From Hydrogenovibrio halophilus DSM 15072 (lineage in GTDB: Bacteria; Pseudomonadota; Gammaproteobacteria; Thiomicrospirales; Thiomicrospiraceae): a stretch of DNA of 64,000 nucleotides. Positions 292-60,083 of the stretch are shown here, piece by piece; position 1 is the stretch's first letter; every line of letters begins with the position of its first letter. The notes beneath the pieces were generated by a model, which was not told where the DNA came from, made no database searches, and worked only from the letters and a program-made list of their open reading frames with translations. The stretch spans positions 1,433,164 to 1,497,163 of the forward strand of contig NZ_KB913033.1 of the NCBI RefSeq assembly GCF_000384235.1. The letters run 5' to 3'. The translations under genes and the position numbers were made by a program.

Positions 292-313
292 TTTTCACCA
301 GGCCTGGTGAAAA
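292..313. repeat. ACCAGGCCTGGT palindrome, copy 1 (core 297-308)
   Basis: The core plus matching TTTTC/GAAAA arms makes a perfect 22-bp palindrome. It lies between the stop codons of two convergent genes. There is no T-tract beyond the stem, so it is not a canonical terminator. Confidence 0.95.
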
Positions 314-314
314 G

Positions 315-413
315 TCAGTGTTTCGAGTCTTTGCGGTCGGTGTTTTTGAGTGCAATGAGCGCCAAGGTGCCAAAAAAGATGCCAGCGGCCAGAATAAGAA
401 AAATTTCACCCAT
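315..413 (-). CDS. Single-helix membrane microprotein (32 aa)
   Basis: A 33-codon frame on the minus strand. The start at 413 is chosen over the in-frame ATG at 419 because AAGGAG lies 8 bases before it. Residues 4-22 form one hydrophobic helix (FLILAAGIFFGTLALIAL), followed by a charged tail rich in Lys, Arg and Asp. It resembles in size and topology the microproteins at 1836-1931, 3349-3438, 5617-5688 and 7232-7327, each of which follows a two-helix membrane-protein gene. Here the partner is absent and the upstream minus-strand sequence is dispersed repeat. Function unknown. Confidence 0.5.
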   Translation of the reverse strand: MGEIFLILAAGIFFGTLALIALKNTDRKDSKH

Positions 414-431
414 GGTCATAACTCCTTATGT

Positions 432-661
432 CGTCATTCCTGCGAAAGCAGGAATCCTTCAAATTTTACCCAACCAACTTGAATTCAGGCAAAAATAACG
501 TAAAACAAAATAGAGGCAGCAAGGTAAGTTTGATTCTGCTCAGCTAAACCACCCATGTCATCCCGACCGAAGCGGAGGGATCTTTTCGACCCGGCGCTAC
601 CTTGAAAATACCCTTCGGCTTCGCTCAGGGAACCGTCATTTCTGCGAAAGCTGGAATCTCT
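432..661. repeat. Cluster of dispersed intergenic inverted repeats
   Basis: Three repeat units are visible. At 436-455, ATTCCTGC and GCAGGAAT flank GAAA, with a decayed copy at 634-660. At 555-587 is a unit beginning GTCATCCCGACCGAAGCGG. At 610-633 is one containing CCCTTCGGCTTCGCTCAGG. The same units recur at 1694-1812, 50341-50546 and 54765-54862. They resemble REP-type intergenic repeats. I see no gene in 420-759; short open frames there are translations of the repeats. Confidence 0.8.
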
Positions 662-759
662 CAATGAGAGTTTCAATGGATCAAAACGCATTCCCGCCCA
701 CTTCATGCTAAAATTCAGCAAATATTTACCCAGCATTTTTACTTTGAGAAACAGCGCCC

Positions 760-1671
760 ATGCGAGTTCAAACCACCATGAATCTGAATAAAGAACAAGC
801 TCAGAACATCGCCAGTGTCCTGGCCGAATCCCTGCCTTACATTCAGCGTTTTGCCGGCAAAACCATTGTGGTCAAATACGGCGGCAATGCCATGACCGAA
901 GAATCCCTCAAAAACGGCTTTGCCCGCGACATCGTGCTGATGAAGCAGGTCGGCATGAACCCGGTGGTGGTCCACGGCGGCGGCCCTCAAATCGGCAAAT
1001 TGCTCGACAAAGTGGGCAAGGAATCCGAATTCATTCAAGGGATGCGCGTCACCGACACCGAAACCATGGACATAGTGGAAATGGTGCTGGGCGGTCTGGT
1101 CAACAAGGAGATCGTCAACCTGATTCACCAGCACAACGGCAATGCCGTCGGCCTGACCGGCAAGGACGGCAACCTGATCGAAGCGCGCAAACTGGAAATG
1201 ACCGATCAAACCTCCGATCTGGATGCGCCCGAATTGATTGACCTGGGGCATGTGGGCGAAGTCGCCAACATCAATATCCGCGTGCTGGCCATGCTGCTCG
1301 AAGACGACTTTATCCCCGTGATCGCGCCGGTCGGCGTGGATGCCAAAGGCGAGTCCTACAACATCAATGCCGATCTGGTCGCGGGCAAAGTGGCCGAAGC
1401 CCTGAATGCGGAAAAACTGATGCTGCTCACCAACACGCCGGGATTGCTGGACAAAAACGATCAATTGCTGACCGGGCTGGACGCCAAAAAAGTCGACGAA
1501 CTGATCAAGGACGGCACCATTTACGGCGGCATGCTCCCCAAAATCCAGTGCGCGCTGGAGGCGGTGCAAAATGGCGTACAGGCCGCGCACATTATCGATG
1601 GCCGGGTCGAACACGCTGTCATGCTGGAAGTCTTTACTGATGAGGGTGTGGGGACGTTGATTACGGCTTGA
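760..1671 (+). CDS. argB: Acetylglutamate kinase
   Basis: Phosphorylates N-acetyl-L-glutamate with ATP, the second step of arginine biosynthesis, in the cytoplasm. The amino-acid-kinase fold is evident: VVKYGGNAM with the catalytic lysine at about residue 39, the [10 protein letters not shown] loop near residue 70, and a C-terminal GGMLPKIQ segment. The length of 303 residues is normal for the family. Translation may start at 760 or at the second ATG at 778 (MNLNKEQ); neither has a strong Shine-Dalgarno sequence. A degenerate second copy of the last 120 bp lies at 3714-3842. No other arginine genes are adjacent. Confidence 0.96.
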
Positions 1672-1693
1672 AAAAGGCGTCAGTTAGCAAAGA

Positions 1694-57894: not shown

Positions 57895-58865
57895 TGCGGG
57901 GCGATGCGTGGTCGGCGTTTTCGGCCGTCAGTATTCGCAAAGGGCAGTCGCCCCTAACGCGCCAGAACTATGCCCGTGACCTGACCGCCTTTGTGCGTTT
58001 TTATCTGGCCTATCATGGACAGCCTTTGCCGCAAGCCCCGGCGCAGGACGCGCAAGGCAAAATGGACCAGGTCTGGTTGTTACAGACCTTTGGCGACTGG
58101 GCGCAAGTGACGGCCACCGACGTTCAGGCCTTTGTGGCCGAACGCATGACCCGTGGCATCAGCGCCCGCACGGTGGCGCGGCAGCTTTCGGCCTTGCGTG
58201 CTTTTTACCGGTTTCTGCTGGACCAAACCATTGTTACCCACAACCCCGCCGCCGACGTCAAAGCCCCCAAACAACCCAAGCCGCTGCCCAAAAGTCTGGA
58301 TGTGGATCGCACCGGTCAGCTGCTGGATCAGCCTCTGGAAACCTGGCAGGACGTGCGCAATCAGGCCATTTTCGAATTGCTGTATTCGTCGGGTTTGCGT
58401 CTGGCCGAATGCGCGGCGCTGGATTTGCAGGGCGTGCTGGACAGGCTGGAAGAAGGGCTGCTGGAAGTGAACGCAGGCAAAGGCAATAAGGACCGTCTGG
58501 TGCCGGTGGGGGAAAAAGCGATTCAGGCTATCCGCCAATGGCTGGCGATCCGCGCCGATTACGCCAAACCGGATGAAACCGCGTTGTTTGTGAACCGTTT
58601 TGGCGGGCGTTTGCACGCGCGCTCGATTCAACAGCAACTGAACCAGCGTGCGCAGAAATCGGGGCTGCCGATGTCGGTTTCGCCCCACCGATTGCGCCAT
58701 GCCTGCGCGACCCATGTGTTAGAATCCAGTGGCGATTTGCGCGCCGTGCAGGACCTGTTGGGCCATGCCAATCTGAGCACCACTCAGATATATACCCAGC
58801 TGGACATGCAGCACCTGACCAAGGTGTATGACCGGGCCCACCCGCGCAGCAAAAAACCGAATTGA
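57894..58865 (+). CDS. xerC: Tyrosine recombinase XerC
   Basis: 323 residues. With XerD resolves chromosome dimers at dif. The N-terminal SAM-like domain (SPLTRQNYARDLTAFVRFYLAYHG) precedes the catalytic domain with all residues present: R in YSSGLRLAECAAL, K in GKGNKDRLVP, HxxR in SPHRLRHACATH, H in LLGHANLSTTQ and nucleophile Y in IYTQLD. The start at 57894 overlaps DUF484 by one base. A near-palindrome at 58066 encodes DQVWL in a long interdomain insertion. Confidence 0.95.
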   Translation: MRGDAWSAFSAVSIRKGQSPLTRQNYARDLTAFVRFYLAYHGQPLPQAPAQDAQGKMDQVWLLQTFGDWAQVTATDVQAFVAERMTRGISARTVARQLSALRAFYRFLLDQTIVTHNPAADVKAPKQPKPLPKSLDVDRTGQLLDQPLETWQDVRNQAIFELLYSSGLRLAECAALDLQGVLDRLEEGLLEVNAGKGNKDRLVPVGEKAIQAIRQWLAIRADYAKPDETALFVNRFGGRLHARSIQQQLNQRAQKSGLPMSVSPHRLRHACATHVLESSGDLRAVQDLLGHANLSTTQIYTQLDMQHLTKVYDRAHPRSKKPN

Positions 58866-58883
58866 TTGAAAGTTGAGGCGATT

Positions 58884-59453
58884 ATGAGCGAACACACCGA
58901 TGCCAACACCTTTTACGGCACCACCATTTTATGCGCCAAACGCGGAGACCAGATGGTCATCGGCGGCGATGGGCAGGTGACACTGGGCCATGTGGTGATG
59001 AAAGGCAATGCCCGCAAAGTGCGCCGACTCTACCACGGCAAAATTCTGGCCGGTTTCGCCGGGGCCACCGCCGATGCGTTTACCTTGTTTGAGCGTTTTG
59101 AAGGCAAGTTGCAATCGCACAACGGGCAATTGATGCGCGCGGCGGTGGAAATGGCCAAAGACTGGCGCACCGACCGGGCCTTGCGCAAGCTGGAAGCGAT
59201 GATGCTGGTAGCCGACAACGACAACATGCTGCTGATTTCCGGCACCGGCGACGTGATCGAACCGGCGCATGACTTCATCGCCATCGGTTCCGGCGGCAGC
59301 TACGCCCATTCCGCCGCACAAGCCCTGATGGACAACACCGAACTGTGTGCCAGAGACGTGGTCGAAAAAGCGCTGAACATCGCCGGCGACCTGTGCATTT
59401 ACACCAACCACAACCTGACCATCGAAGTGCTCGATGGCGAATCGCATGAGTGA
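58884..59453 (+). CDS. hslV: HslV peptidase subunit
   Basis: 189 residues from the ATG at 58884 (TTGAGGCG upstream). Threonine protease core of HslUV. The catalytic Thr is T13 in [10 protein letters not shown], exposed after removal of a 12-residue propeptide, longer than usual. [33 protein letters not shown] and [12 protein letters not shown] are conserved. Last of dapF-DUF484-xerC-hslV; hslU is not downstream but divergent at 54922. Confidence 0.96.
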
Positions 59454-59456
59454 GCC

Positions 59457-60041
59457 ATGAGTGCCGAATCTGAGAACCCTTTACTGACCGACACCGAATC
59501 CGGTTCCTGTGACCGCAAACGAAGCCGAGCCGAAAAAGGCTTTGAAGGCGTATTGTGGAACAGCCGTTTTGTGGTGTTGCTGGCCGTGATCGCCAGCTTG
59601 ATCATGGCGTTCGGCATTTTTTACATGACCAGCATCGACGTCTATTACACTCTGGCGCACCTGACCCATTATCACGAACTGGCGGGCGCAGACAGAGCCG
59701 AACTCAAGGCGCAAACCGTGGCGCATGTGGTCGGCGCGGTCGATGGGTTTCTGCTCGGTACCATCATGCTGATCTTTTCTCTTGGGCTGTACGAACTGTT
59801 TATCAACAAAATACAGGCCGCCGAAGGCCAAATGGGCGCCAGTCAGATACTGATCATCAACACGCTGGACGACCTGAAAAACAAGCTGGCCAAAGTCATT
59901 CTGCTGATCCTGATCGTGATGTTTTTCGAACAGGCCCTGTTCCTGAAACCCACCACACCGCTGGAACTGCTCTACTACTCACTGGCCATCGTCCTGATCG
60001 CACTGGCCCTCTACTTCTCGCAGAAAGCCTACAGTAAATAG
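59457..60041 (+). CDS. YqhA family (UPF0114) membrane protein
   Basis: 194 residues. A hydrophilic N-terminus (about 38 residues) precedes four TM helices: RFVVLLAVIASLIMAFGIFYM, HVVGAVDGFLLGTIMLIFSLGLYELFI, LAKVILLILIVMFFEQALFL and LYYSLAIVLIALALYF. The family motif VDGFLLG...GLYELFINKI is clear. Starts three bases after hslV, so perhaps co-transcribed. Function unknown. Confidence 0.9.
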   Translation: MSAESENPLLTDTESGSCDRKRSRAEKGFEGVLWNSRFVVLLAVIASLIMAFGIFYMTSIDVYYTLAHLTHYHELAGADRAELKAQTVAHVVGAVDGFLLGTIMLIFSLGLYELFINKIQAAEGQMGASQILIINTLDDLKNKLAKVILLILIVMFFEQALFLKPTTPLELLYYSLAIVLIALALYFSQKAYSK

Positions 60042-60057
60042 GCCCAAAACCCGACCC

Positions 60058-60083
60058 ACTTTTCACCAGGCCTGGTGAAAAGT
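60058..60083. repeat. ACCAGGCCTGGT palindrome between yqhA-like gene and csy4
   Basis: Core 60065-60076 with ACTTTTC/GAAAAGT arms, a perfect 26-bp palindrome in the gap between convergent genes. Nothing else is recognised in 60042-60152. Confidence 0.95.

Follow-up and report, generated by a model that had tools for sequence, protein, structure and literature searches.

The 64,000-nucleotide stretch of Hydrogenovibrio halophilus DSM 15072 analysed here (the window; bases 1433164-1497163 of a single 2,356,686-base chromosome, the focal genome G000) carries 20 exact copies of a 12-bp palindrome, ACCAGGCCTGGT. Within the genomes searched, this motif is confined to one family of sulfur oxidisers – Hydrogenovibrio and its relatives – whose members spell it in different dialects. 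Our favoured reading, which we regard as plausible but short of an even chance, sees the palindrome as a dialect of a genomic self-mark used family-wide, which would work, by analogy, like the uptake signal sequence (USS) or the DNA uptake sequence (DUS) of other bacteria.

The palindrome was first noticed in a sequence-only reading of the window, and that observation proved correct, with a real extent larger than had been stated. All 20 reported starts are exact. Allowing up to two mismatches, we found 29 matches in the window against a mean of 2.41 in dinucleotide shuffles, and none of 100 shuffles reached 29. The reported near copies also exist, although two of their starts had been placed one base off (true starts 5828 and 19269). 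A 30-bp perfect palindrome at 37606-37635 was verified; at 15 of the 20 window sites perfect symmetry is limited to the central 12 bp. Flanks in G000 have a polarity, with T to the left and A to the right.

A count against a Markov model, which had been proposed as a check, placed the motif far over expectation: 444 kb of G000 holds 98 copies of ACCAGGCCTGGT where a trinucleotide model predicts 0.17. The whole chromosome holds 515 copies, and the reversed word, used as a control, does not occur. Copy density is alike in separate parts of the chromosome (the first 100 copies cover 517 kb). Perfect copies outnumber copies one base off, with counts of 98 and 27 for the 444 kb of G000 and of 75 and 20 for 420 kb of a relative, G005.

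To place the motif phylogenetically, we used a set of 62 family genomes in seven genera, among them Hydrogenovibrio (g1) and two genera, g6 and g3, which we infer to be Thiomicrospira and Thiomicrorhabdus. The set includes Hydrogenovibrio sp. JE_KL2 (G001), Hydrogenovibrio S010_36 (G007), H. marinus MH-110 (G010) and Thioalkalimicrobium cyclicum ALM 1 (G015). Copies of the core CAGGCCTG number 236-1173 in each of 32 genomes and 0-74 in each of the remaining 30. In a class-wide sample of 369 genomes, four of them in the family, each of the 365 outside the family has 0-5 copies of ACCAGGCCTGGT; only this spelling was counted, and other families could have other dialects. Among the papers listed in literature searches, which covered few subscription journals and were judged by title and abstract opening, none deals with the motif or with uptake sequences in this family.

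No such motif was seen in 26 of the 62 family genomes, only some of which were covered by dialect scans. k-mer scans found no comparable motif in G012, G018, G061, G062 and G024 (40 kb each) or in G007 (51 kb), samples in which a sparse motif could escape; beyond those six, the k-mer look at motif-negative genomes covered only 7 kb of G016. In a tree of PriA proteins from 30 members of the family and an outgroup – a single-protein tree, resolved in part – the motif-less G029 and G007, the latter on a long branch, nest among carriers. Because motif-less genomes exist, two of them nested in this way, the function of the motif appears to be dispensable.

The dialects below come from k-mer scans of 20-264 kb samples (besides G000 and G005, mostly 20-120 kb per genome); the consensuses for G013, G006, G003 and G009 represent few sites each.

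G000 and G005: TTT.ACCAGGCCTGGT.AAA
G002 and G009: CCAGGCCTGG, with outer A-rich and T-rich flanks
G008, G006 and G003: AAAA.T..CCAGGCCTGG..A.TTTT
G013: AAAT.T.ACCAGGCCTGGT.A.ATTT
G021 and G025: CAGGCCTG core, next bases variable
g6 pool: CAGGCCTG, mostly as ACCAGGCCTGGT and also as GCAGGCCTGC, strong outer flanks lacking
G031: ACCGGCCGGT, 39 copies in 80 kb, AAA.TTT outer flanks
G001 and G010 (H. marinus), asymmetric: AAAATCTGCCAGGTTGGG, about 17-18 bp
G004, asymmetric: AAAATCTGCCAGGCTGGG, about 17-18 bp

The last three of these genomes, all Hydrogenovibrio, seemed motif-negative at first, and carry an asymmetric form, AAAATCTGCCAGG(T/C)TGGG, that differs between them by one base. Counted genome-wide on both strands, the T form CTGCCAGGTTGGG has 252, 223 and 4 copies in G001, G010 and G004, and the C form CTGCCAGGCTGGG has 1, 2 and 211. 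The C form occurs once each in G002 and G009, and the other six genomes of the genus have neither form. At the switched base, C is paired with T in seven of seven orthologous alignments, which cover five G004 sites, two of them with poorly aligned flanks. The residual minority copies – four T-form in G004, one and two C-form in G001 and G010 – are possibly transferred or unconverted sites. Both strands are used almost equally by the asymmetric form (forward/reverse 123/129, 101/122 and 94/117 in G001, G010 and G004).

The PriA tree places the asymmetric clade, with G007, inside Hydrogenovibrio, whose other members carry the palindrome, as does G013. By parsimony on this tree, the palindrome would be the ancestral state and symmetry would have been lost in the H. 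marinus clade. Samples from this clade also contain inverted pairs of sites 21-30 bp apart (four pairs among 19 sites in G010, two among 17 in G004); four of the six have outward A and T tracts and are terminator-like, and two have the opposite arrangement. A/T flanks are found at coding sites as well, more weakly in some dialects, and for this reason we consider them part of the mark.

We compared the placement of sites in ten samples, using a home-made and crude gene caller. Each of the ten has more sites that are at least partly noncoding than expected: 46 of 98 against 14.6 expected in 444 kb of G000, which bears out the claim that about half of the copies lie outside genes or at their ends, 43 against 8.7 in G005, 21 against 6.4 in G031 and 12 against 2.0 in G010, with the lowest ratio in the g6 pool (21 against 12.9). 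The other 52 G000 sites lie inside coding sequence. In tandem gaps, the upstream stop lies at a median distance of 22-100 bp from the site and the next start at 97-175 bp, depending on the sample. Sites are few in divergent gaps: in G000, 3 fall in 12.4 kb of these and 14 in 11.8 kb that are convergent. By number alone the g3 pool departs from this, with 7 divergent (in 7.1 kb) and 5 convergent (in 2.0 kb). The earlier suggestion of a regulator site is disfavoured by this arrangement: few copies in divergent gaps, and noncoding sites that lie closer to the preceding stop than to the following start, make such a role unlikely.

Sites are also spaced more regularly than random. The coefficient of variation of spacing was 0.73, 0.64 and 0.61 in three samples, values matched by 2, 0 and 0 of 5000 random placements, and the same samples have 5, 6 and 2 gaps below 1 kb where 17.4, 19.3 and 12.1 are expected.

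Comparison with a relative, another check that had been proposed, revealed strong conservation of the core. In an alignment of G000 with G005 at 78% DNA identity, 43 of 62 context-aligned G000 sites have an identical counterpart in G005: 26 of the 37 that are coding and 17 of the 25 that are noncoding. This count may hold one surplus pair, as the sites at 5215 and 7499 appear aligned to one G005 sequence. Nearby 12-mers are identical in 5.8% of cases in coding context and 10.4% in noncoding context. In the reverse direction, 43 of 53 G005 sites are identical in G000. Among the 19 differing G000 sites, nine are ungapped substitutions (five single, three triple and one six-base) and ten are gapped; some of the latter resemble gains or losses of whole blocks, and some noncoding sites are missing as blocks. 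Motif information fades gradually from the centre outward, with symmetry up to about 28 bp. Core conservation, together with dialect switching, argues that the sites have some reader.

Window sites, found by exact or approximate motif scan, are listed here with their state in the alignment to the G005 sample. Unless marked otherwise, each is ACCAGGCCTGGT.

297..308: intergenic, 22-bp perfect palindrome; no alignment to G005 sample
5215..5226: noncoding, in ~100-nt duplicated unit; same core in G005, apparently the same G005 site as for 7499
5828..5839: degenerate copy ATCAGGCTTGGT, in ~100-nt duplicated unit with 5215 and 7499
7499..7510: noncoding, 24-bp perfect palindrome in duplicated unit; G005 core identical, apparently the same site as for 5215
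9329..9340: context uncertain, open reading frame (ORF) 9307-9801 or gap; G005 core identical
12202..12213: within coding sequence 10818-12353; not at the corresponding G005 place
16311..16322: within coding sequence 16283-16837; G005 core identical
19315..19326: within coding sequence 19175-20146; no alignment to G005 sample
19813..19824: within coding sequence 19175-20146; no alignment to G005 sample
28291..28302: intergenic, first member of close pair; G005 core identical
28318..28329: intergenic, second member of close pair; three substitutions in G005
29696..29707: directly upstream of priA (29713-31977); G005 core identical
37606..37635: 30-bp perfect palindrome around ACCAGGCCTGGT (37615-37626), intergenic; G005 core identical
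41477..41488: within coding sequence 39853-42060 (sucrose-phosphate synthase-like); one substitution in G005
43918..43929: close to 3' end of coding sequence 43011-43943; G005 core identical
45970..45981: directly behind gene 44001-45962; no alignment to G005 sample
49353..49364: within coding sequence 49051-49656; absent at the corresponding G005 place
51420..51431: within coding sequence 51167-52780 (minus strand); G005 core identical
53473..53484: within coding sequence 52848-53561 (minus strand); one substitution in G005
54321..54332: short gap between genes 53561-54313 and 54332-54718; G005 core identical
60065..60076: 26-bp palindrome, 23 bp behind gene 59457-60041; G005 core identical

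Descent of all copies from one recent local amplification had been named as an outcome that would speak against the observation. Only the copies at 5215 and 7499 have duplicated flanks (90% identical), with the degenerate copy at 5828 in the same unit of about 100 nt; the only other sharing of 100-bp flanks among the 20 exact copies is between 28291 and 28318, which are 27 bp apart, so that their flanks overlap. Because duplicated flanks are limited to this one pair, we rejected local amplification as the source of the motif.

The duplicated unit itself is present in three copies, at 5133-5232, 5746-5845 and 7417-7516, with 70-86% identity to the middle copy. Each holds a terminator-like GC hairpin with a T run, after which stands either the palindrome or the degenerate version of it. 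Between the units are two short ORFs that overlap, one of 84 amino acids (5898-6152) and one of 91 (6142-6417).

We next consider what the motif might be for. As an uptake-like self-mark, it would consist of a GC-rich core with the half-site CCAGG, CAGG or CCGG and, in most lineages, A/T tracts reaching to about one helical turn. Two half-motifs would usually overlap in dyad symmetry, one half having degenerated in the H. marinus clade. A candidate sequence-specific reader would co-evolve with the motif and favour DNA that bears it, uptake of kin DNA and recombination would keep the copies perfect, and a shift in reader specificity would lead to conversion of the whole genome to a new dialect.

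Iterated motifs are established as uptake marks in Pasteurellaceae and Neisseriaceae, and an iterated palindrome of cyanobacteria, HIP1, is unexplained. By its anatomy – core and A/T tracts, dialects, terminator-like inverted pairs, permissive placement behind genes and a published dyad form – the motif resembles uptake sequences most, and these appear to be the best fit. We also count in favour of uptake the one-base switch, the excess of perfect over one-off copies, the regular spacing with few short gaps, the scarcity of sites in divergent gaps and the use of both strands by the asymmetric form. The DUS of Neisseriaceae, as described by Frye et al. (2013; PMC3630211), is likewise short and is repeated hundreds to thousands of times, both within genes and outside them; its spelling varies between species by one or a few bases or by insertion of a base, and its copies form inverted pairs associated with terminators. 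For Simonsiella and Kingella the same paper describes overlapping DUS with dyad symmetry, which the authors take as a possible sign of recognition by a dimer; a palindromic uptake mark thus has precedent. The two systems differ in that sequence and family are unrelated, the palindrome is the rule here, several carriers here have no PilQ-grade secretin, and the uptake role here is by analogy only. The USS of Pasteurellaceae, as presented in PMC7811141 and PMC12616744, shares a genome-wide GC core with contributing AT-rich flanks, but has another core and is denser (about 1 kb mean spacing, compared with 4.6 kb for the 12-mer in G000); the USS receptor is described there as a prediction. In Pasteurellaceae, ComN was nominated by matching orthogroups to motif and dialect.

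Several results weigh against an uptake role. Neither the USS nor the canonical DUS is palindromic in published accounts. ComEC (PF03772) speaks for uptake by its presence in 56 of the 62 genomes, G000 included, and in 31 of the 32 whose core count is 200 or more, the one without a match being G066 (82% complete); its presence in motif-less genomes as well speaks against. We called a secretin PilQ-type at E <1e-45, a line set in this analysis (the curated cut-off is passed by none of the family genomes and by one of 14 control genomes). By this measure, 7 of the 31 motif carriers with a completeness of 90% or more gave no PilQ-grade match (G000, G022, G026, G082, G001, G010 and G004), nor did 6 of the 20 other genomes in the comparison. 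G000 has an MSHA (mannose-sensitive haemagglutinin)-type cluster in place of PilQ, with MshL at 248.3 bits against a cut-off of 250.2, and in G022 and G082 the only secretin match is a weaker one (E 4.9e-17 and 1.6e-16). Copy number is not reduced in g6 genomes that have no PilQ-grade match: it is 1128, 853 and 994, and 1101 in the 83% complete G081, compared with 840-1014 otherwise. The minor pilin family FimT/GspH, which binds DNA (PF12019; ComP and other pilins were not searched), was found in only 3 of the 62 genomes, all motif-less. Depletion of sites in horizontally acquired DNA gave no clear sign, with 4 sites in 21.4 kb unshared with G005 and 94 in 422.6 kb shared, and none of the papers listed reports transformation in these species.

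The distribution of the motif is not explained by whether a genome has PilQ or ComEC, and FimT is unsupported as its reader. Because the gaps in PilQ-grade secretins and the FimT result weaken the uptake reading, we hold it only tentatively. The uptake-like tag suggested at the outset stands as the best anatomical match, and falls short on the secretin missing from several carriers, G000 included.

A site acting on the chromosome inside the cell comes close behind, because carriers without a PilQ-grade secretin exist; we consider this explanation possible, if somewhat doubtful. A dimeric DNA-binding protein would occupy several hundred evenly spaced palindromes, selection for binding would keep the sites and change in the protein would drive the dialects. 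Roles could include nucleoid architecture, relief of supercoiling at the 3' ends of transcription units, segregation or control of recombination. Consistent with such a protein, the motif has two-fold symmetry to about 28 bp with A/T tracts, regular spacing with few close neighbours, strong positional conservation, and a bias to positions behind genes and in convergent gaps that leaves divergent gaps poor in sites. It is also kept where a PilQ-grade secretin was not found, and the nucleoid or segregation site named in the sequence-only reading remains a close rival on that account. The 52 sites within genes fit less well, as do the 26 motif-less genomes, with G029 and G007 nested among carriers, and the loss of symmetry in the H. 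marinus clade. Clustering of the terminus type was not seen in the G000 stretches examined. Uptake-type drive and intracellular selection predict the same for most measurable features.

Chi sites occur about once per 4-5 kb, are species-specific and are oriented along the replichore. The motif has a similar density and species-specific spelling, but is a palindrome of 12-28 bp, and its asymmetric dialect has no marked strand bias when counted over whole genomes, irrespective of origin and terminus.

We think it quite possible, though still less than probable, that the motif is a genome-wide identity mark with its own reader that is neither methylation-based nor a matter of type-IV-pilus uptake. 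The mark would be a palindrome as long as about 28 bp, repeated every 2-5 kb; shifts in the specificity of its reader would drag hundreds of sites along, and in one lineage the site would have passed from palindrome to asymmetric form. If true, this would add a new class of elements, for chromosome organisation or self-recognition. The several dialects in close relatives can be compared site by site, giving access to how hundreds of sites are respelled in concert and to what reads them. Contrast cases permit direct tests – sister species with the T and the C form, carriers without a PilQ-grade secretin, and carriers without the cytosine methyltransferases searched for.

The sequence-only reading had also raised a methylation target. 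A highly iterated palindrome (HIP) made and kept by a DNA methyltransferase, through methylation-directed repair or mutation bias, would resemble HIP1 and the alternate HIPs of cyanobacteria. As described by Elhai (2015; PMC4390886), these too are GC-rich palindromes in hundreds of copies with other palindromes in some relatives, but they have cores of 5-8 bp, and each genome with a HIP also encodes a methyltransferase whose predicted recognition site is a part of the HIP. We searched for two methyltransferase families, PF00145 and PF01555, counting every match, weak ones too, as present. PF00145 (C5-cytosine) has matches in 24 of the 62 genomes, 23 over the cut-off; profile search found none in G000, in G005 or in nine genomes of g6. 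PF01555 (N4-cytosine/N6-adenine) has matches in 24, 21 over the cut-off; it was not found in G000, and G005 has a sub-threshold match with an internal stop codon. Both families are missing in 13 of the 32 motif-rich genomes (11 of 27 at 90% completeness or above), G000 among them, and neither is associated with the motif across the 62 genomes (Fisher P 0.43 and 1.0, uncorrected for phylogeny). In addition, the ACCGGCCGGT dialect has one adenine per strand, at the outermost base. On the two families covered, methylation is thus disfavoured, and we consider a HIP-type origin improbable.

Iterated palindromic elements near gene 3' ends are also known as repetitive extragenic palindromes (REP) and bacterial interspersed mosaic elements (BIME). 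A bounded mobile or selfish repeat of this kind, or one like a miniature inverted-repeat transposable element, that spread by insertion would account for the high copy number, for the 10 of 19 differing G000 sites that are gapped relative to G005, some noncoding ones lost as blocks, and for the local duplication that bears two copies (5215 and 7499). Against it, the other nine differing sites are point substitutions in an ungapped core, information decays gradually where an element would have fixed ends, about half of the copies lie within genes, and dialects switch bases at orthologous sites in concert while the core is kept and its neighbours diverge. The self-spreading repeat put forward earlier is thus disfavoured, to the point of being very unlikely.

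We give equally little credence to transcription terminators or another RNA-level element: noncoding sites do come after stop codons and are dense in convergent gaps, and the outward-tract pairs of the H. marinus clade are terminator-like, but the G000 flank polarity runs the wrong way for a U tract, 52 of 98 G000 sites are intragenic, and the window has zero Rfam matches at gathering thresholds. A phage or viral origin was rejected, as no dialect-rich virus was found among viral contigs, a result that says little about phages of these hosts. Three motif patterns matched 2, 6 and 5 stretches of a virus collection, with the full pattern once in each, and one high-GC viral stretch has six copies of the shorter CCGGCCGG.

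Other features were observed alongside the motif. A Csy1-like CRISPR-associated protein is encoded at 62573-63622, in a low-GC stretch (60714-63622, extending to about 68300 of the joined stretch) that is unshared with G005; 61401-68300 holds zero copies of the palindrome. A 32-nt repeat resembling CGTCATTCCTGCGAAAGCAGGAATC has four copies (432-463, 634-665, 1742-1773 and 1782-1813), near a transposase-like ORF at 2384-3172. In the samples of G004 (L034-L036) and G010 (L040-L041), some 10-mers recur 28-34 times when the two strands are counted together, and CCGCGG is over-represented (58 in 103 kb and 65 in 100 kb); a long repetitive protein gene is possibly responsible. Finally, the sucrose-phosphate synthase/phosphatase-like gene at 39853-42060 and the nearby alpha-amylase-family gene at 44001-45962 perhaps form a sucrose (compatible solute) cluster.

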